In this document: piece after piece, positions 53,293-64,000 of the stretch
Position numbering within the stretch: position 1 is the stretch's first letter
How the letters are laid out: the number at the start of each line of letters is the position of its first letter
NCBI GenBank assembly: GCA_013348845.1
Contig: CP054675.1
Location: 186,001-250,000 of the forward strand
Direction of reading: 5' to 3'
From: Candidatus Tepidiaquacella proteinivora
GTDB taxonomy: Bacteria > Bacteroidota > Ignavibacteria > Tepidaquicellales > Tepidaquicellaceae
Length of the DNA: 64,000 nt
Made by a program: the position numbers and the translations under genes
Notes under the pieces: generated by a model
Seen by the model: only the letters and a program-made list of their open reading frames with translations
Told to the model about the DNA's origin: nothing
Databases searched by the model: none

Positions 53293-54828
53293 ATGGCAAA
53301 AACAAAATCAAAAGGTGCGAACTTAGGTTTTGAGCAAAAACTCTGGCAAGCAGCAGATAAACTGAGAAGTAATATGGACGCTGCAGAATACAAACATGTT
53401 GTTCTTGGACTGATTTTTTTAAAATACATTTCTGATGCTTTTAATGAAGTTTATGAAGAGGTAAAAAAAGATCCTCTTTCTGATCCCGAAGACAGAGATG
53501 AATATATTGCAAGGAGAGTTTTCTGGGTCCCTAAGGAAGCCCGTTGGGATTATCTTCAGTCAAATGCTAAAAAATCAGAGATTGGTGAGATTATAGATAC
53601 TGCGATGGAAGACATTGAAAGGGACAACCCGTCACTTAAAGGAGTTCTTCCGAAAAATTATGCTCGACCAGCTTTGAATAAAGAGCGATTAGGAGAACTG
53701 ATTGATTTAATCGGAACAATAGGTTTAGGCGATAAGGAAAATAAAAGCAAGGATATATTAGGAAGAGTTTATGAGTATTTTCTTGGACAATTTGCAGATG
53801 CTGAAGGAAAGAAAGGAGGACAATTTTACACTCCAAGAAGTATTGTTCAATTGCTTGTAGAAATGCTTGAGCCATACAAAGGAAGGATATTTGATCCCTG
53901 CTGTGGCTCAGGAGGAATGTTTGTTCAGAGCGAAAAATTCATAGAGGCACACGGCGGAAGAATAGGCGATATTTCTATTTATGGACAGGAAAGCAACCAG
54001 ACCACCTGGCGTTTGTGCAAAATGAATTTAGCTATCAGAGGAATTGATGCAAATATTAAATGGGGTGATTCTTTTCATGATGATCAGTTTAAGGATTTAA
54101 AAGCAGATTTTATTTTAGCGAATCCTCCTTTTAATGACAGTGACTGGAGAGGAGAACAACTACAAGATGATGTGCGCTGGAAATTCGGAGTTCCCCCTAA
54201 AGGCAATGCCAACTTTGCGTGGGTTCAGCACTTTATCCACCATTTATCACCTATAGGAACTGCAGGTTTTGTTCTTGCCAACGGCTCTTTAAGCTCTATG
54301 ACTTCCAACGAAGGAGACATAAGAAAAAAAATTGTAGAAGCGGACCTGGTTGATTGCATCGTTGCTTTACCTTCTCAATTATTCTATAACACAATGATTC
54401 CTGCGTGTTTGTGGTTTGTTTCAAGAGACAAAAAAAATCATAAATTCAAAAACAGACAAGAAAAAGTTCTATTTATTGATGCAAGAAAAATGGGTGTGAT
54501 GATTGACCGAAGACACAAAGAACTTACAGACGAAGAAATAAAGAAAATCGCAGACACCTATCATGCCTGGCGGGGAGAAAATGGTCTTGAATACAAAGAC
54601 ATTCCCGGATTCTGCAAGTGTGCTACAATAGAAGAAATCAGAAAACACGACCATATCTTAACCCCCGGCCGTTATGTCGGCACCGTAGAAGAGGAAGAAG
54701 ACAACGAGGCATTCGAAGAAAAGATGAAAAGATTAACAACCGAGCTTGCAAAACAAATGGAAGAAGGAAAAAAATTAAATAAAGAAATAAAAAGAAATCT
54801 GGAAAGTATTGGATGGAAGATAGAATAA
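53293..54828 (+). CDS. hsdM: HsdM, type I restriction-modification DNA methyltransferase
   Basis: HsdM is the N6-adenine methyltransferase subunit of a type I system. The 511 residues show the N-terminal helical domain ([23 protein letters not shown]), [16 protein letters not shown], motif [12 protein letters not shown] (about residues 200-210) and catalytic motif IV NPPF (277-280). The C-terminal tail is a charged helix. A Schlafen-type gene starts 1 bp after its stop, so the unit order is hsdM, accessory genes, hsdS, hsdR. Confidence 0.96.
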
Positions 54829-54829
54829 T

Positions 54830-56284
54830 ATGAATAACGATTTGAAAAGTAAAATAGAACAATTACTTAAAAAAGGCGAAGGGATTACTCTTGAGTTTAA
54901 AGAATGTAAAAAAGGTGTTCCCAAAAGCCTTTATGAAACTATCTGTGCTTTTCTTAATAGATATGGTGGCGAGATATTATTAGGGGTAAATGATAAAGGA
55001 AGAATTACAGGAATTAATTATATCGAAACAATAAAAAAAGAAATCATTACCACCATAAATAATCCTCAAAAAATCAGTCCTCCGGTTTATCTGGCAATTG
55101 ATGAAGTTGTAATAGAAAAGAAAAAAATTCTTTATTTATATGTGCCTCAAAGTTCACAGATGCATTCGTGCAATGGCAGAATATTTGACAGAAATGAAGA
55201 TGCAGATCTGGATATTACTGGCAATCAGTCGCTTATTTCACAAATCTTTTTAAATAAACAAAGTCAATATTCTGAAAATACCATTTATCCTTATTGTGAA
55301 CTTTCTGATTTAAGAGAAGATTTAATTGAGAAAGCTCGTAAACTTGCTGTTATCAAAGATGGCATCCACCCTTGGAAAAATTTGACTAATGTTGAATTGC
55401 TAATAAGTTCCAGATTATATATGAAAGACCTTAAAACAGGAAAGGAGGGTTTTACACTCGCCTGTATTTTGCTTTTTGGAAAAGACGAGACAATTCTTTC
55501 GGTCGTTCCCCACCATAAAACAGACCTGATCGTAAGACGAATTAATCTTAACAGATACGATGATCGAGACGATGTGCGAACCAATCTTATTGAAAGTTTT
55601 GACAGAATAATGACATTCAGTGAAAAACACCTGCCAGATCCCTTCTATTTAGAGGGTAGCCAGAGATTCAGTTTACGAAACCAAATTATGAGAGAAATTG
55701 CATCCAATGTTTTAATTCACAGAGAATATATGAATGCATATCCAGCCAAAATTATTATCGAAAAGAATAGAATCTTTTGTGAAAATGCCAACAGACCACA
55801 TTTCAGAGGGAGCATATCTTTAAAAGATTTCACCCCCTTTCCTAAAAATCCTACAATTGCAAGAATGTTTAAAGAAATAGGGCTGGCAGATGAACTTGGC
55901 TCTGGTGTAAGGAATCTGCTTAAATATGTAAAAATATATTCAGGAAAAGAACCTATTTTTATAGAGGATGATATTTTTAAAATTATCGTTCCGCTTAGAG
56001 AAGACTTGTTTGAAAAAATAACAGAAGATAAAAGTTCCCAGAAAAGTTCCCAGAAAAGTTCCCAGAAAGTTATTGATCTAATCAAAGAAAATAAACAGAT
56101 AACTATTTTAGAAATATCATCAAAATTAGGTATAAGTGATAGGGCAGTAAAAAAGATTATCTCTAAATTAAAGCAACAGGGCAAACTAAAGAGAATAGGA
56201 CCAGACAAAGGTGGATATTGGGAAACAAAATTTTTAGATGATGAAATACAAAACTATAAAAGAAAATCAAAACACAGAATTTAA
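54830..56284 (+). CDS. Schlafen/AlbA_2-domain protein with HATPase-like and winged-helix parts (copy 1)
   Basis: This 484-residue protein has an N-terminal AlbA_2 (Schlafen-like) domain with LEFKECKKGVPKSLYETICAFLNRYGGEILLGVNDKGRITGI. A middle/C-terminal domain resembles the HATPase_c_4 region of RecG-like proteins (REIASNVLIHREYMNAYPAKIIIEKN, GLADELGSGVRNLLKYVK), and a winged helix follows (ITILEISSKLGISDRAVKKIISKLKQ). A Lys-Ser-Ser-Gln repeat links the last two parts. Such proteins often accompany type I systems; they may bind nucleic acid or regulate. It overlaps the next, related gene by 47 bp. Confidence 0.82.
   Translation: MNNDLKSKIEQLLKKGEGITLEFKECKKGVPKSLYETICAFLNRYGGEILLGVNDKGRITGINYIETIKKEIITTINNPQKISPPVYLAIDEVVIEKKKILYLYVPQSSQMHSCNGRIFDRNEDADLDITGNQSLISQIFLNKQSQYSENTIYPYCELSDLREDLIEKARKLAVIKDGIHPWKNLTNVELLISSRLYMKDLKTGKEGFTLACILLFGKDETILSVVPHHKTDLIVRRINLNRYDDRDDVRTNLIESFDRIMTFSEKHLPDPFYLEGSQRFSLRNQIMREIASNVLIHREYMNAYPAKIIIEKNRIFCENANRPHFRGSISLKDFTPFPKNPTIARMFKEIGLADELGSGVRNLLKYVKIYSGKEPIFIEDDIFKIIVPLREDLFEKITEDKSSQKSSQKSSQKVIDLIKENKQITILEISSKLGISDRAVKKIISKLKQQGKLKRIGPDKGGYWETKFLDDEIQNYKRKSKHRI
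56030..56065 (+). repeat. Three tandem 12-bp repeats inside Schlafen-like copy 1
   Basis: The unit AAAAGTTCCCAG occurs three times without a gap, coding for repeated K-S-S-Q. The unit length is a multiple of three, so slippage would change linker length but not frame. Confidence 0.95.
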
Positions 56285-57608
56285 AGTGTCCTGGCGTGAT
56301 GAATACTTAAAGGTTTTATCAGCCTTTGCTAATTCTAAGGGAGGAACTTTATACATAGGTGTAGATGACTATGGTAAGCCTGTAGGTATACCTGAAAGCC
56401 AAAGGAAAAAACTCCTTGAAAGCCTGCCTAACAAAATCAGAAATAGATTGAATATAACGCCGATGGTAAGTGAAGAAAAATATAAGGGATTTGACATTAT
56501 AAAAATACAGATTGATTCAGCTGGTTTCCGCGTTCCCTTTGAAGGGAAATTTTATAATAAAGTTGGAAGTACCGTTCAGGAATTAACAGGACTTGAACTT
56601 TCTGCTTTTCTGCTGGAAAAATCAGGAAAAACATGGGATGGTTTGCCAATTGAGGCTGACATAGATGAATTGGACATTGACACTATTGAACTATTCAAAA
56701 CGCTTGCCCAAAAACGCTTGCCCCATATAGAGCAAGAAAAAGATGTTAGACTTTTGCTTTCAAAATTGAAGCTAATAGATGACGATAACAAATTAACAAG
56801 AGCATCTATTTTACTTTTTGGTAAAGACCCAAGAAAACATTTTTTTACAGCTTACACACGAGTAGGGAGATTTAAAACTGAAATAGATATTCTGGACACT
56901 GTGGATATAGAAGGAAATCTTTTTCAACAATTTGAACAAACAGTTGAAGCCATCAAAAAACATTTAAATGTCAGGTTTGATACTTCCGTGAAAGAATATA
57001 GTATTGGAGGGTTTTCACGCCGTGATATCTGGGATTATCCTCTGGATGCGATACGAGAAATTATTGCCAACGCACTCATACACAAAGATTATCTGGATAC
57101 CTCACCTATTCAGATTAAAGTATATGATGATAAGATAACTTTCTGGAACAGCGGAAAACTTCTTTTCCCTCTCACTGTAGAAAGTTTGAAAACCGAACAT
57201 CCTGTAAGACAGCGTAACCCCCTTCTTGCTTCTGTGTTTTATTATGCAGGTATCGTGGAGCAGTGGGGCTCTGGTACGCTAAAAATAATAAGGCTTTTTA
57301 GAGAACAGGGACTTCCTGAGCCAGAATTTGTAGAAAAAAAAGAAGGTATTGGAGATTTCACGGTTTATATTTATAAAGACAGGTTTAATGTAAAGGAACT
57401 CCGTAAAATGGGGCTTAACGAAAGACAAATAAAGGCTGTGCTTTATGTAAAAGAAAAGGGAAAAATTACAAATAAGGAGTATCAGGAATTAACACAAGTA
57501 TCAAGACAAACAGCCACGAGAGACCTTCAGGAACTTGTTGAAAAGAGTATTTTTATTATGCATGGCGCAGCTAAAAGAGAAATTTATTATCAATTGAGTC
57601 AAAAATGA
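56238..57608 (+). CDS. Schlafen/AlbA_2-domain protein with HATPase-like and winged-helix parts (copy 2)
   Basis: This 456-residue protein has the same domain order as the previous gene but is well diverged: N-terminal AlbA_2 (NTEFKVSWRDEYLKVLSAFANSKGGTLYIGVDDYGKPVGI), the HATPase_c_4-like part (REIIANALIHKDYLDTSPIQIKVYDDKITFWNSGKL, VEQWGSGTLKIIRLFREQGLP), and a C-terminal winged helix (ITNKEYQELTQVSRQTATRDLQEL). The start at 56238 overlaps copy 1 by 47 bp, with a second Met two codons on. The 3' end lies within a 27-bp repeat. Likely a regulatory or nucleic-acid-binding partner of the restriction system. Confidence 0.82.
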   Translation: MMKYKTIKENQNTEFKVSWRDEYLKVLSAFANSKGGTLYIGVDDYGKPVGIPESQRKKLLESLPNKIRNRLNITPMVSEEKYKGFDIIKIQIDSAGFRVPFEGKFYNKVGSTVQELTGLELSAFLLEKSGKTWDGLPIEADIDELDIDTIELFKTLAQKRLPHIEQEKDVRLLLSKLKLIDDDNKLTRASILLFGKDPRKHFFTAYTRVGRFKTEIDILDTVDIEGNLFQQFEQTVEAIKKHLNVRFDTSVKEYSIGGFSRRDIWDYPLDAIREIIANALIHKDYLDTSPIQIKVYDDKITFWNSGKLLFPLTVESLKTEHPVRQRNPLLASVFYYAGIVEQWGSGTLKIIRLFREQGLPEPEFVEKKEGIGDFTVYIYKDRFNVKELRKMGLNERQIKAVLYVKEKGKITNKEYQELTQVSRQTATRDLQELVEKSIFIMHGAAKREIYYQLSQK

Positions 57609-57648
57609 GGCAATAATGAGGCAATTGAGTCAAAAACGAGGCAATAAT
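57591..57648 (+). repeat. Direct repeat of 27 bp at the 3' end of Schlafen-like copy 2
   Basis: Copies lie at 57591-57617 and 57622-57648, beginning CAATTGAGTCAAAAA, with one T/C difference. The first covers the last codons of copy 2 (Q-L-S-Q-K-stop); the second repeats the same codons in the downstream 35-codon frame. Confidence 0.9.
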
Positions 57649-57908: not shown

Positions 57909-57970
57909 GTAATGAAAGTAATGATTAAGAAATGAAAAAGAAGGTAATAAGATTAAAGAATGAAATAAAC

Positions 57971-58516
57971 ATGAAATTCGACCCCGACAAACATCACCGC
58001 CGTTCTATTAGGTTGCCCGGTTACGATTATTCACGGGCAGGTGCGTATTTCATCACCATTTGCACACAAAACCGGGAATGTTTGTTCGGGAATATTGTTG
58101 ATGGTGTTATGGTGATAAATGAATATGGAATGGTGGTACAAAAATGTTGGTTGGAAACCGAATATATTCGACCCGGTGTTAAATTGGATGAATATGTTGT
58201 GATGCCGAATCATTTTCATGGGATTATCGTAATTACCGATGAATATCGAAAAAATGTAGGGGCGTATTGCGATACGCCCCTACAATACGATAACGTTTAT
58301 TTTAAATCCCCGTCCAAAACCATTGGTGCCATTGTTCGTGGTTTTAAATCGCAAACAACCAAACAAATCAACCAAATCCGCCAAACACCCGGCATTCCCC
58401 TATGGCAACGCAATTATTACGAACACATCGTTCGCAATGAAATGGATTTAAACCGCACCAGACAATACATAATTGACAATCCGCAAAATTGGGAGAAAGA
58501 TGAAAATTATGGATAA
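57971..58516 (+). CDS. REP-associated tyrosine transposase (RAYT, IS200/Y1-like)
   Basis: This 181-residue single-strand DNA transposase of the RAYT type has the family start KFDPDKHHRRSIRLPGYDYS, HUH motif VVMPNHFHGIIVI (His-Phe-His), and a catalytic Tyr candidate in QRNYYEHIVRNEMDLNRTRQYI. RAYTs act on REP/BIME palindromes. A 30-bp REP-like palindrome lies inside this reading frame at 58255-58284. The frame is open from ATG 57932, but 57971 fits the family. Its base composition is less AT-rich than the neighbours, suggesting separate arrival in the island. Confidence 0.9.
   Translation: MKFDPDKHHRRSIRLPGYDYSRAGAYFITICTQNRECLFGNIVDGVMVINEYGMVVQKCWLETEYIRPGVKLDEYVVMPNHFHGIIVITDEYRKNVGAYCDTPLQYDNVYFKSPSKTIGAIVRGFKSQTTKQINQIRQTPGIPLWQRNYYEHIVRNEMDLNRTRQYIIDNPQNWEKDENYG
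58255..58284. repeat. REP-like palindrome within the RAYT gene
   Basis: Perfect 13-bp arms TGTAGGGGCGTAT and ATACGCCCCTACA enclose a TGCG loop. The form matches GC-rich REP hairpins that RAYTs mobilise. It is read through in frame and codes for V-G-A-Y-C-D-T-P-L-Q. I found no second copy by eye in the window. Confidence 0.9.
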
Positions 58517-58652: not shown

Positions 58653-60917
58653 ATGGAGAAACATACCATGATAGAAAAAATCAAATTACACAATGTAGCA
58701 ACATACAAAAATGAAGTTAAAATATCTGATTTAAGAGAAATTAATTTCTTTTATGGTTCAAATGGTAGTGGTAAGACAGCTATTTCTAAGTTAATTGCAA
58801 ATCCTGAATTATTTCCAAATTGCCAAGTTAATTGGAGAGGTAATAACAAATTGAAAACGCTTGTTTTTAATGAAGATTTTGTAAAAGCATATTTCTATCA
58901 ATTTGATGAACTAAAAGGTATTTATACAATTGGTGAAGGGGCAAAAGAAATTGAAGAAAAGATAGATAATAAGAATGGTGAATTAAAAAAATTAATTGAA
59001 GGAACTAATGGTTTGCGAGTAACAGAAGAAGAAAAAAAACAAGAGTTTAAATTAGCTTTTGATAAATTTAAAGATGATTGTTGGAAAAATATTTACCAAA
59101 AATATCAAAAAGATTTTCCCGATATATTCAAGGGGTATGGAAAAAGCAAAGAAAATTTTGCTAATAAAATCTTATTTGAAAATAAAGAAAATGAATCAAC
59201 TTTAAAAGATTTAAATGATTTAAAAAAAGAGTATGCAATCCTTTTCAATAAAAATTTAACACAGTTAGATACAATTTCTAATATTAATAAAAATCTAATT
59301 GACCATATTTCAGAATTAGAAAATCAACAGATATTGAAAACCAAGATCATTGGAAAAGAAGGTATCGACATAGCCCAAATGATTCAAAAATTACAAAACC
59401 ATGACTGGGTTAGACAAGGAAAAGATTATTTTGAGAAAAATTATAGTGAAGATGAAAAAGTATATTATTGTCCTTTCTGCCAGCAAAAAACACCCAGTGA
59501 TTTTAAAGAAAAATTGGAAAAATACTTCGGTGAAACTTATGAAAATCAAATTAAAGAGCTTAATAAGTTAATTCAAGATTATGAAGATATAGAAAAAAAT
59601 TTAACTGATTTCTTTGAAAAATTAAATAAATTAGAAAATCAGTATTTAAATGAAAAAAAGAAAGAATTGGAAGATAAAAAGCTATTCCTATTTCAGATAA
59701 TATCTATAAATAAACAAAAACTGTCAAACAAACAACAAAATCCAAGCACTGCAATTACTCTTGATTCAATAATTAAAACCATCGAAGAAATAAATAAAAT
59801 TATTAATTCAATAAATACAGAAATTCAAAAGTATAATCAACTAATCCAAAACCAAAAAAATGAACAAAAAAGAATTGAATCAGAATTGTGGAAATATTTT
59901 ACTAATGGGATATCTACAATAATTCAAAGTTATAATACACAAAATGGAAATATTCAAAAAGCCTTAGAAAACATTAATAATCAAATTAAAGAAAAAGAGG
60001 AAAAACAAAAAACTATTAAGAATGAAATTTTAGAACTTGAAAGTAAAAGAAAAAGCGTTATTCCAACTGTTGAAGCGATAAATAACTTATTAGAAAGTTT
60101 TGGTTTTAGTGGTTTCAGATTAGCAGCAACTGAAGACGAAAAGCATTATAGAATAGTTAGAGACGATGGGTCTTCAGCTAAAGAAACTTTAAGTGAAGGC
60201 GAAAGGAATTTTATTGTATTTCTTTACTTTTATCATCTAATTCATGGAGTTTTAAATCCAGAAGAAAATATTACTCAAGATAAAATCGTTGTTTTTGATG
60301 ATCCTGTCTCAAGTTTGGATTCAGATGTCTTATTTATTGTTGCAACATTAATTAAGAAAATTTTAAAAGATATCAGAGAAAAAAAAGGTAATATAAATCA
60401 AGTTTTTGTACTTACTCATAATGTTTTTTTCTTTAAAGAAGTATCTTACATTTCTTCAAGAAAATCAAATAACAAAAGGAGAGTTACAAAATATTTAATA
60501 GTAAGAAAAGCAAATGGAATTAGTTCGATAAATTCTTTTGAAGAAAATCCAATAAAAACAACCTATCAATTATTATGGGATGAAGTTAAGAGAACCGATA
60601 AAATTAATTGTGTTTCGCTTCAAAATTCTATGAGAAGAATAATAGAATTTTATTTTAAACTATTGGCTGATCTTAATGAAGAGGAATTAATAAATGAATT
60701 TGTGGATGAAAGAGATAAACAAATATGCGGATCCTTAATTTCATGGATTAATGTAGGTTCACACGAAGTTTTTGATGATTGTAATTATACTCCTTCTGAG
60801 GATATAGAAAAATTTAAAGAAATATTTAAAAATATTTTTGAAAAAACAGGGCATATTGCCCATTATAATATGATGATGGGAATTAATGAAAATATTGATG
60901 AAAATATTAACGACTAA
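58653..60917 (+). CDS. RloC-like ABC-type ATPase with zinc hook, candidate anticodon nuclease (AAA_13)
   Basis: This 754-residue protein has Walker A GSNGSGKT (35-42), long coiled coils with a Rad50-like zinc hook CPFC (273-276), ABC signature LSEGERNF, Walker B KIVVFDDPVSSLDSD and H-loop VLTHN. The C-terminal domain holds R661-x3-E665 (in SMRRIIEFYFK) and His704 (NVGSHEVFDD), matching the Arg-Glu-His triad of the tRNA anticodon nucleases PrrC and RloC. RloC is known to be linked to type I loci and to combine exactly these parts, and this gene sits between hsdM and hsdS. Nuclease activity is inferred. A start at internal ATG 58668 is possible. Confidence 0.82.
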   Translation: MEKHTMIEKIKLHNVATYKNEVKISDLREINFFYGSNGSGKTAISKLIANPELFPNCQVNWRGNNKLKTLVFNEDFVKAYFYQFDELKGIYTIGEGAKEIEEKIDNKNGELKKLIEGTNGLRVTEEEKKQEFKLAFDKFKDDCWKNIYQKYQKDFPDIFKGYGKSKENFANKILFENKENESTLKDLNDLKKEYAILFNKNLTQLDTISNINKNLIDHISELENQQILKTKIIGKEGIDIAQMIQKLQNHDWVRQGKDYFEKNYSEDEKVYYCPFCQQKTPSDFKEKLEKYFGETYENQIKELNKLIQDYEDIEKNLTDFFEKLNKLENQYLNEKKKELEDKKLFLFQIISINKQKLSNKQQNPSTAITLDSIIKTIEEINKIINSINTEIQKYNQLIQNQKNEQKRIESELWKYFTNGISTIIQSYNTQNGNIQKALENINNQIKEKEEKQKTIKNEILELESKRKSVIPTVEAINNLLESFGFSGFRLAATEDEKHYRIVRDDGSSAKETLSEGERNFIVFLYFYHLIHGVLNPEENITQDKIVVFDDPVSSLDSDVLFIVATLIKKILKDIREKKGNINQVFVLTHNVFFFKEVSYISSRKSNNKRRVTKYLIVRKANGISSINSFEENPIKTTYQLLWDEVKRTDKINCVSLQNSMRRIIEFYFKLLADLNEEELINEFVDERDKQICGSLISWINVGSHEVFDDCNYTPSEDIEKFKEIFKNIFEKTGHIAHYNMMMGINENIDENIND

Positions 60918-61070: not shown

Positions 61071-61238
61071 ATGAAACCACGAACAACCAAATTCAAACCT
61101 GCATGCACTTCGAACGCAGGTAAACAAACCGAAATCGGTTCACCTGTGCACCCCGTGCAGGCAGGATCAATACCTGAAGAGTGGGAAGTGAAGAGTATTG
61201 GCGAGGTAGAGGACATTATTGTTTATAAAATAAAATGA
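61071..61238 (+). pseudogene. Truncated 5' fragment of hsdS
   Basis: The 55-residue frame contains KQTEIG, then an extra about 10 residues, then IPEEWEVKSIGEV, the N-terminal signature of type I specificity subunits, and stops soon after. Its 61170-61209 segment is repeated at 61885-61924 in full-length hsdS (39 of 40 bases the same). It is probably the original start of hsdS, separated from the rest by insertion of the HEPN gene. The extra residues come from GC-rich hairpin sequence (61098-61120 and 61143-61161). Confidence 0.75.
61098..61161. repeat. Two GC-rich REP-like hairpins in the hsdS fragment
   Basis: CCTGC...GCAGG (61098-61102 with 61116-61120) and CCTGTGCAC...GTGCAGG (61143-61151 with 61155-61161, one bulged base) stand out against AT-rich surroundings. 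A similar GGCAGG...CCTGCC hairpin lies at the end of hsdS. Confidence 0.6.
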
Positions 61239-61924
61239 TTCATAAAACAAGTCAAAGTAAGCAAGAAATTGGATAAATGTATAAAATGAAATTGATGAGT
61301 ATTGAAAATGAATTATAAAGATTTAATTACAAATTGGCACAAAAAAGCAAAGAGGCAAAGAGATTACTTTTCAAAATTTGTTTTTGAGTATTTAGCATTT
61401 ATTGCATATCTCAAAACACAAAAATATTCTAGTAGGGATAGGGATAGACAATCGATACAAAAACTAAAAAGAGAATCTGAATTAAAAACAAAATATATTA
61501 AGAGAATAAAAGATATGAATAAATTAAAAAAGAATTGGGTAAGAATTAAAGAAGAATTTGATTATATTCCATTAGGTAATGCTTCAAGAAATTTAAATGA
61601 AGTTGAAGAAATTGAGTGGTGGAATTGCTCGCATGATAATTTAAAGCAAAAAACAGATGAAGAAAAAAGAAAATTAAAGGGAGTTATTCACTCTCTTGAT
61701 GATTGGGAAAATATGGTTGAATTTTGGTACAGTATAAGAAATAATTTATTTCATGGTGCAAAAAATCCTGAAAATGAAAGAGATCAATTTGCAGTTAAAT
61801 ATGGATATTTAACATTAAAAGAATTAATGGAGCTATTATTAAATGAAAAGTAAATCAAGTTTTAAACAAACAGAAATAGGATGGATACCGGAAGAGTGGG
61901 AAGTGAAGAGTATTGGCGAGGTAG
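61170..61924 (+). repeat. 40-bp direct repeat of the hsdS 5' end bracketing the HEPN gene
   Basis: Copies at 61170-61209 and 61885-61924 differ at one base (T61175 versus G61890) and are 715 bp apart. Both code for I-P-E-E-W-E-V-K-S-I-G-E-V. The reading frames are in register, so recombination between them would remove the HEPN gene and leave one open hsdS. Confidence 0.93.
61302..61853 (+). CDS. HEPN-like protein, putative RNase (restriction island cargo)
   Basis: This 183-residue, Lys-rich, mostly helical protein ends in a helix with WYSIRNNLFHGAKNP, where R146-x4-H151 fits the Rx4-6H motif of HEPN ribonucleases found in toxins, abortive-infection proteins and CRISPR effectors. The preceding helix is DDWENMVEFWYSIR. 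No antitoxin partner (MNT nucleotidyltransferase) is adjacent. Its 3' end overlaps the hsdS start by 11 bp, so the two should be coupled. It is bracketed by the 40-bp hsdS repeat. I do not recognise the precise family; HEPN membership rests on the motif and predicted helices. Confidence 0.65.
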   Translation: MKMNYKDLITNWHKKAKRQRDYFSKFVFEYLAFIAYLKTQKYSSRDRDRQSIQKLKRESELKTKYIKRIKDMNKLKKNWVRIKEEFDYIPLGNASRNLNEVEEIEWWNCSHDNLKQKTDEEKRKLKGVIHSLDDWENMVEFWYSIRNNLFHGAKNPENERDQFAVKYGYLTLKELMELLLNEK

Positions 61925-63213
61925 CAGATGTTATAGGTGGTGGTACACCTTCAACAAAAAACCAGGAATTTTGGGATGGTGATATTCCTTGGATAACTCC
62001 AAAGGATTTGTCTAGTTTGAACTTTAGATACATTAAAAGGGGTGAAAGAAATATAACTAAAAAGGGATTAGATAATAGTAGTGCAAAATTATTGCCAGAA
62101 GGAACTGTCTTATTAACTACACGCGCACCAGTTGGGTATTTAGCTATTGCTGCTAAGGAACTTGCAACAAATCAAGGATTTAGAAGTTTAATACCAAAAA
62201 ATAAAATACTCTCTGAATTCTTATTTTATCTATTAAAAAAGAATGTAGAAATTTTAAAATCAAATGCAGGTGGTTCAACATTTGGTGAACTTTCAGGTAG
62301 CAGATTAAAGGAACTTGAATTCCCCATCCCTCCCCTTACCGAACAGCGCGCCATCGCAAAAATCCTCTCTGACCTGGATGCGAAAATTGAACTCAATCAG
62401 CAGATGAATAAAACGCTTGAAGAAATTGGCAGGGCTATTTTTAAGCACTGGTTTATAGATTTTGATTTCCCTAATGAAGAAGGCAAGCCATACAAAAGTT
62501 CCGGTGGGGAGATGGTTTACAACGAAGAATTAGGCAAAGAGATACCGAAGGGGTGGTGGGTTGAACAATTAGGTAAATTAATTTTTAAAAACAGAAATAA
62601 ATTATCTCAAAAGAGCCAATGGGAAAAGGAAAATGTTATTGATTTATCAAATATGCCAAGATTTTCAATATGTATTGATACCTTTCAAAAAGGTAAAAAT
62701 TTTGAATCAAATATATATATACTAAAAGAATTTGATATTTTATTCGGTTCGATAAGGCCTTATTTTGGTAAAGCTGGTTTTTCGCCAATAAATGGTGTAG
62801 TTACTGGTACAGTTTATTCTTTTTTACCAAAAAAAAAATATTTTTATTCATATTTACTGTTTCTAATTTCAAGTAAAGAATTTATTGAATATACAGTAAA
62901 TTATTCAAAAGGAACAAAGATGCCTATAATTGGATGGGACGATTTTTGTTTGTATTTGGTAACCTTACCAGAAAATATTGACTTAATCGTAAAATTTAAT
63001 TCAATTATGTCACCATTAATAAGAAAAATTAAAGATAATATCTGTGAATCCCTCACCCTTTCCTCCATCCGCGACGCTCTTCTTCCCAAACTTATGTCCG
63101 GGAAAATTCGTGTGCCGGTTAGTATCGTTCAGGATTCATCTGCACACAAAGGGCAGGCAGAAAAACCTGCCAGCAAAATATGCACAGGTAAATCAAAAGA
63201 GGAAAAGGTATGA
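61843..63213 (+). CDS. hsdS: HsdS, type I restriction-modification specificity subunit
   Basis: This 456-residue DNA-recognition subunit has two target-recognition domains. TRD1 begins IGWIPEEWEVKSIGEVADVIGGGTPS. The first conserved helix region is IPPLTEQRAIAKILSDLDAKIELNQQMNKTLEEI...FKHWFIDFDFP, TRD2 begins around IPKGWWVEQLG, and the second conserved region ends RDALLPKLMSGKI. A tail of about 30 residues after PKLMSGKI is longer than usual and comes from GC-rich hairpin DNA (GGCAGG/CCTGCC at 63152-63171). The stop overlaps the hsdR start (ATGA). The target sequence cannot be predicted here. Confidence 0.95.
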   Translation: MKSKSSFKQTEIGWIPEEWEVKSIGEVADVIGGGTPSTKNQEFWDGDIPWITPKDLSSLNFRYIKRGERNITKKGLDNSSAKLLPEGTVLLTTRAPVGYLAIAAKELATNQGFRSLIPKNKILSEFLFYLLKKNVEILKSNAGGSTFGELSGSRLKELEFPIPPLTEQRAIAKILSDLDAKIELNQQMNKTLEEIGRAIFKHWFIDFDFPNEEGKPYKSSGGEMVYNEELGKEIPKGWWVEQLGKLIFKNRNKLSQKSQWEKENVIDLSNMPRFSICIDTFQKGKNFESNIYILKEFDILFGSIRPYFGKAGFSPINGVVTGTVYSFLPKKKYFYSYLLFLISSKEFIEYTVNYSKGTKMPIIGWDDFCLYLVTLPENIDLIVKFNSIMSPLIRKIKDNICESLTLSSIRDALLPKLMSGKIRVPVSIVQDSSAHKGQAEKPASKICTGKSKEEKV

Positions 63214-64000
63214 AAAAAGCCATCTCTGAATCGGACCTTGAAGATTTTGTTCTATCGGTGTTGGGTAGCCTCGGTTATGAGGTTATTCGCGGAGACAGAG
63301 AGGAATATCTTCCGGGAGGGAGTTTTGCCTTAAGAAACGATTACAAAGAGGTTCTGCTTGTTGAAAGATTGAGAAATAGTTTAAGAAATATCAATCCTTC
63401 CACTACCACAGAATCAATAGAGCAAGCAATAAAACAGATTCTTACAAGTGAAAGTCAAAATCTGCTTTTTGAAAATGAAAGATTTCATAAAATGCTTGTT
63501 GATGGTGTTGATGTTGCAATTCGTAAAGATAGCGAGGAAAGATATGAAAAAATCTGGCTTTTTGATTTTAAGGATATTAGTAACAATGAATTTATGATTA
63601 CCAATCAGTTTACCGTTCTTGAAAATAATTATGAGCGACGCCCTGATATTGTAATTTTTATCAACGGCATACCTTTAGCTATAATGGAACTGAAGAATCC
63701 TGCCGATGAAAACGCCACGATCTGGGATGCTTACAATCAACTGCAAACTTATAAGGAACAGATTTCCACTCTCTTTAAATACAATGAAATTCTTGTTATC
63801 AGCGACGGCTTGCAGGCAAGGGCGGGAACAATCACGTCGGAGTCCGAACGATTTATGCAATGGAAAACCATCAACGGAGAAAAACCTGATAAGGATTTGA
63901 TTGAAATCGAAGTTCTGCTGCGGGGGATGTTTGATAAATCAAGAATCCTTGACATTATAAGAAATTTTATAGTATTTGAAAAAAATGGAGAAACTAAAAA
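63210..64000 (+). CDS. hsdR: HsdR, type I restriction endonuclease subunit (3' end outside window)
   Basis: This is the start of the restriction and translocation subunit; only the first 263 codons are present and the frame remains open at the window end. The N-terminal nuclease domain is visible: an early helix ESDLEDFVLSVLGSLGYEVIRGD, the PD-(D/E)xK core with Asp146 (RRPDIVIFING) and E160-L-K162 (AIMELKNP), followed by AYNQLQTYK and the segment preceding the helicase motor. The ATG overlaps the hsdS stop by 4 bp (ATGA), implying coupled translation. Confidence 0.95.
   Translation, partial: MKKAISESDLEDFVLSVLGSLGYEVIRGDREEYLPGGSFALRNDYKEVLLVERLRNSLRNINPSTTTESIEQAIKQILTSESQNLLFENERFHKMLVDGVDVAIRKDSEERYEKIWLFDFKDISNNEFMITNQFTVLENNYERRPDIVIFINGIPLAIMELKNPADENATIWDAYNQLQTYKEQISTLFKYNEILVISDGLQARAGTITSESERFMQWKTINGEKPDKDLIEIEVLLRGMFDKSRILDIIRNFIVFEKNGETK

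Follow-up and report, generated by a model that had tools for sequence, protein, structure and literature searches.

An intact RloC-type candidate anticodon nuclease encoded within a type I restriction–modification locus of Candidatus Tepidiaquacella proteinivora

Results

Gene Organization of the hsd Locus

The window analyzed here, the whole 64,000-nucleotide stretch of the contig, contains a type I restriction–modification (R-M) locus in which hsdM, two SLFN/AlbA_2 genes, a REP transposase gene, rloC, a 5′ remnant of hsdS, a HEPN-like open reading frame, hsdS, and hsdR follow one another in this order on the forward strand. The methyltransferase subunit is encoded by hsdM at positions 53,293–54,828 (Pfam N6_Mtase, 1.7e-117; HsdM_N, 4.5e-29) and the specificity subunit by hsdS at positions 61,843–63,213 (Pfam Methylase_S, 6.1e-49). 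The 5′ part of hsdR occupies positions 63,210–64,000 (Pfam HSDR_N, 6.1e-53), and the full gene, encoding 1054 aa, runs past the window.

Downstream of hsdM are two cargo genes, assigned through Pfam, for SLFN_AlbA_2/RecG-C-like proteins A (positions 54,830–56,284) and B (positions 56,238–57,608), and the end of the second of them is straddled by short repeats, CAATTGAGTCAAAAATGAGGCAATAAT, at positions 57,591–57,648. The next gene (positions 57,932–58,516) resembles REP-associated tyrosine transposases (Y1_Tnp), with an NCBIfam REP_Tyr_transpos match of 6.8e-18, below the cut-off, and a Pfam Y1_Tnp match of 1.7e-4, just below the cut-off. It is followed by the rloC-like gene at positions 58,653–60,917 and then by the hsdS remnant at positions 61,121–61,219, which duplicates part of the beginning of the intact hsdS (positions 61,863–61,934) as a 57-nt direct repeat with 88% identity and an 18-nt repeat with 89%. 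This remnant is the scar of an insertion or recombination at hsdS. The sequence-only reading had placed rloC between hsdM and hsdS; the gene does lie inside the hsd locus, but it does not directly adjoin either of them, since the two SLFN/AlbA genes and the transposase gene precede it and the hsdS remnant and the HEPN-like frame come after it. The GC content of both rloC and the HEPN-like frame is 24.8%, and that of the hsd genes is 34–38%.

The HEPN-like frame (positions 61,302–61,853, forward strand) encodes 183 aa from a TTG start, or begins at an ATG at position 61,308, and overlaps hsdS by 11 nt. Its product contains the motif RNNLFHG, which has the form R-x4-H, and matched no Pfam or NCBIfam family. 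Searches of viral contigs, of phages, and of another 295 genomes of the phylum found no relatives; a single distant relative, with 25% identity and the motif RCNLFHG, is encoded on a Methylocystis plasmid.

The same genome holds a second copy of hsdM (L123, 4942–8134; contig approximately 384.9–388.1 kb), 87% identical to that of the window, which is split (residues 2–200 and 269–465) around an N6/N4 methylase frame and a frame of unknown kind and adjoins a further SLFN-like gene. It also holds a second RloC-like paralogue (L002, 1399–3678; approximately 1365 kb) with a CQFC hook and the R-x3-E...SH pattern; it neighbors a gene for a DUF3644 protein, and an HSDR_N-type fragment lies 5 kb away.

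Domain Composition and Conservation of the RloC-Type Protein

The rloC frame is single, open, and unbroken from its ATG start, and its product of 754 aa has an ABC ATPase head split by a coiled-coil/zinc-hook insert and a C-terminal domain of the anticodon-nuclease type. Pfam AAA_13, the check proposed from the sequence-only reading, matched residues 15–730 almost end to end with an E-value of 4.9e-167, and the PADLOC model PDC-S06 matched residues 6–747 with 4e-248. The PADLOC model for PrrC covered residues 496–740 (3e-12), and the best PADLOC model, PDLC04890, is common to this protein and a phage homologue titled "translation-disabling ACNase RloC" by its depositors.

All of the expected ATPase motifs are present: Walker A, GSNGSGKT (residues 35–42, codons 58,755–58,778); the ABC signature LSEGER (residues 513–518) and the Walker B DDP (residues 549–551), together spanning positions 60,189–60,309, the latter within VVFDDPVSSLD at 546; and the His switch, THN, at 588. 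The columns of these motifs are invariant in the relatives. The CPFC zinc-hook motif (residues 273–276, positions 59,469–59,480) is the sole CxxC of the protein and lies near residue 277.5, halfway from Walker A to the signature motif. In the C-terminal domain (residues 630–754, positions 60,540–60,914), the triad has the form R661-x3-E665-x38-H704, with S703 preceding H704; the codons are at 60,633–60,635 for R661, 60,645–60,647 for E665, and 60,759–60,764 for S703–H704. The combination of an ABC ATPase, a CPFC hook, and R661, E665, and H704 in one protein, claimed from the letters alone, was thus found at the residues then named.

A scan of named genomes yielded 80 loci; 78 of them, spread over many phyla, have a full-length open frame with 32–41% identity to the window protein. 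Residues C273, C276, N658, R661, E665, S703, H704, and H737 (window numbering) are invariant in all 78 full-length relatives. K41 of Walker A is invariant as well, but Walker A and THN served as search patterns, so that their conservation is biased, whereas the hook and the triad lay outside the patterns. The published RloC consensus is R-x3-E-x36-52-H, often with Ser preceding the His (PMC2610378). In the window protein, R661 is the only residue at which a match to this pattern begins. The bare pattern arose in 16% of shuffles of residues 601–754 and in 1.3% when Ser-His was demanded; shuffling of the insert produced CxxC in 1.5% of cases. Despite the rate of 16%, a chance origin of R661, E665, and H704 can be rejected, and the motif residues as a whole are not a product of chance, because they are invariant in 78/78 relatives. 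A protein of Streptococcus phage Javan105 that carries the annotation RloC (L014, 4983–7244) has SND aligned with the conserved GSH and may lack the catalytic His.

Comparison with Studied RloC and PrrC Proteins

In RloC of G. kaustophilus, R692, E696, and H737 are each required for tRNA cleavage (Davidov & Kaufmann 2008, PMC2610378), and a mutation of the hook leads to higher activity (PMC2610378). Compared through the published residue numbers and the consensus, the spacing of the window triad fits that of these residues. The domain order, the CxxC hook in the coiled-coil insert, and R-x3-E-x36-52-(S)H are shared with RloC of G. kaustophilus and A. baylyi (Davidov & Kaufmann 2008; Klaiman et al. 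2013); the length of 754 aa falls inside the range of 658–897 aa given for RloC proteins (PMC2610378), and insertion in a type I R-M locus is a further likeness. With the end-to-end AAA_13 match, the invariant triad, and the spacing expected from PMC2610378, the earlier identification as RloC is borne out, and the conserved Arg-Glu-His of the relatives falls on R661, E665, and H704 rather than elsewhere.

The window protein resembles PrrC, the EcoprrI-linked anticodon nuclease, in the ABC motifs, in the C-terminal R-x3-E...SH region, and in residence at an hsd locus, and differs from it in length and build: PrrC has 341–416 aa and no coiled coil or hook. Judged by sequence comparison, the C-terminal domains of the two are homologous: the C-domain profile gave an E-value of 2.2e-5 against PrrC-like proteins in hhalign, and residues 630–754 alone matched AAA_13 (model positions 612–713) with 1.4e-21. 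Around the triad, where a comparison with PrrC had been proposed from the sequence-only reading, N-x2-R-x3-E is common to the window protein and two PrrC-like proteins, one encoded in another genome of the family (L007) and one on an E. coli plasmid (L110, annotated as an anticodon nuclease). The automatic alignment sets Tyr opposite H704, and the Ser-His of PrrC, about three residues earlier, can be brought into register by a small shift. In the original work, this part of the RloC/PrrC alignment was likewise adjusted by hand (PMC2610378).

Predicted Structure

The full-length model, built on a 79-sequence alignment (mean pLDDT 87.6, pTM 0.55), has an ABC head from which long helices lead out (from 95–151 onwards) and back (421–464), with the hook loop close to the midpoint and long helices on both sides of it. 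The top match of the predicted head is Rad50 (5da9_B, Z 17.1, rmsd 3.0 over 235 residues), and Lamassu chains are also among the matches. R661 and E665 share one predicted helix (653–671); H704 lies in a loop (699–713) modeled with a pLDDT below 50.

The C-terminal domain modeled in isolation reached a pTM of 0.75. A Foldseek comparison of it with solved structures gave none with an E-value under 0.001 (best 1.1), and the top rows of VIA-align 2 were unrelated helical bundles (RSV M2-1, Z 5.6). HEPN toxin chains appear among the fold matches (7ae2_A, Z 3.5; 7ae6_B, Z 3.3) as weak hits below the unrelated bundles; the C-domain of RloC has been placed in the HEPN RNase superfamily (PMC3710099). 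Sequence searches of the PDB found no solved relative by phmmer and only coiled-coil look-alikes by profile.

Linkage of rloC with hsd Genes

Where this hsd lineage occurs in related genomes (hsdM identity 57–65%), it carries other cargo: an AAA_15/AAA_21 ATPase and a GmrSD_N protein in one (L126) and a Fic protein, an SMC-like protein, and a DUF6615 protein in another (L128). The interval is therefore a hot spot for cargo, and the low-GC rloC is one of its passengers. The family owes its name to hsd inserts of Campylobacter (PMC2610378), and the rloC of the window is likewise a passenger of an hsd locus.

Across the relatives, an hsd match was found in the flanks of 13 of 87 named ones, several of these matches being weak (near 100 bits). 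Where flanks of at least 18 kb were available, hsd genes were near rloC in about 9 of 49 relatives, a count made without L106–L109. On the RloC tree, the hsd label requires 11 changes compared with a mean of 12.3 for shuffled labels, i.e., it is scattered as shuffled labels would be, and hsd linkage as an ancestral trait of the clade of the window protein was rejected on this ground. Sequences from Bacteroidota, Bacillota, Campylobacterota, and Pseudomonadota are intermingled on the tree, which suggests frequent transfer. The window protein itself sits on a long branch (1.18), with at most 41% identity to any of the 78 tree relatives.

Discussion

Our results make it highly probable that the gene at positions 58,653–60,917 encodes an RloC-type anticodon nuclease, in which an ATPase head that senses DNA ends would switch on a C-terminal tRNA-cutting domain. 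The anatomy, the motifs and their conservation, the homology of the C-domain with that of PrrC as judged by sequence, and the residence in the hsd locus are direct features of the gene, and the Rad50-like fold of the head is a prediction of the model. The defense-type genes around it and its low GC content also speak for this reading. By its sequence, the protein adds one more intact member to a family already known, in a setting already known for it, and leaves the picture of the family unchanged.

By analogy with studied RloC proteins, in which switching by ATP and linear DNA, zinc control, excision of the wobble nucleotide, and tRNA-Glu/Gln targets have been described (PMC2610378, PMC3874168), the switch by ATP and DNA ends, the control by zinc, and the cleavage of tRNA may be expected here too. 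The Rad50-like head would bind and hydrolyze ATP and, together with the coiled-coil arm and the CPFC zinc hook at its apex, would act as a sensor of DNA ends. Breakage of DNA, for example by phage-driven degradation or by restriction, would cause the head to turn on the C-terminal nuclease, and R661, E665, and H704 would then take part in a cut in the anticodon loop of tRNA, where studied RloC proteins excise the wobble nucleotide. Translation would stall as a result, and the spread of the phage would be limited.

The best-surviving alternative differs from this reading in the trigger alone: as with PrrC, the HsdMSR proteins of the locus would silence the nuclease, and phage anti-restriction factors would release it. 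Such an arrangement, which published authors thought possible, is favored by the location of rloC on the same strand and in the same locus as hsdMSR; hsdS and hsdM flank a PrrC-like gene in another genome of the family, such a gene is also found on an E. coli plasmid, and five relatives (L023, L032, L059, L094, and L095) carry rloC between hsdS and hsdR or between hsdM and hsdR. We nevertheless regard it as rather unlikely, with hsd genes near so few of the fully flanked relatives, and these scattered on the tree, with close relatives of the hsd genes bearing unrelated cargo as a hot spot predicts, and with a native RloC set off by inducers of DNA breaks even in R-M-deficient mutants (PMC3874168). 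Since published RloC proteins switch internally on DNA breaks, even without restriction enzymes, control of rloC by the neighboring R-M system cannot be assumed; the location makes a joint role possible and no more. For the same reasons, and with several cargo genes sharing the interval, the position of the gene does not bear the weight that the sequence-only reading gave it as support for a back-up role when restriction fails: the identification stands, and what was concluded about function from the position has to be put less strongly than it was.

The window rloC differs from known ones in that its hsd locus also holds the HEPN-like frame and two SLFN/AlbA genes. That RloC and a HEPN-like RNase form a layered suicide module together with the type I R-M system, as successive RNA-cutting back-ups, and that the HEPN-like protein either acts as a further toxin or regulates HsdS or RloC, is a speculative idea to which we give little credence. 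In an hsd operon of Acetobacter ascendens (L012, 3005–9768), hsdM and hsdS enclose a HEPN-MNT-type pair of nucleotidyltransferase-substrate-binding and nucleotidyltransferase genes, and an RloC gene directly follows hsdR, a layout parallel to that of the window.

It is slightly less probable still that the protein has the shape of RloC and persists as cargo without anticodon-nuclease activity, or while cutting another RNA. The authors who described RloC raised the suspicion that some proteins of the family with poor motifs are inactive, and the long branch and low identity of the window protein would be compatible with such a loss, but its frame is undamaged and the ATPase, hook, and triad residues are all intact and invariant in the family. 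A DNA-end processor of the Rad50/SbcC or Lamassu LmuB kind, instead of a tRNase, is very improbable. The protein resembles Rad50 and SbcC in its CxxC hook in a coiled-coil insert; the predicted head, with its Rad50 and Lamassu matches, and a weak LmuB profile match in PADLOC (1.9e-14) would be in line with such a processor, yet PDC-S06 scores far higher, Rad50 and SbcC end after the second ATPase half and have no counterpart of the domain at residues 630–754 that is conserved with PrrC (PMC2610378), and Pfam analysis of the locus found no gene for an Mre11/SbcD-type partner among the neighbors.

Taken together, the data describe an intact and well-conserved RloC, very probably an anticodon nuclease, from a lineage without close homologues, at the kind of hsd locus that first drew attention to the family. 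With it, a long-standing question can be tested cleanly, namely, whether an RloC linked to an R-M system answers DNA breaks alone or the neighboring restriction enzyme as well.
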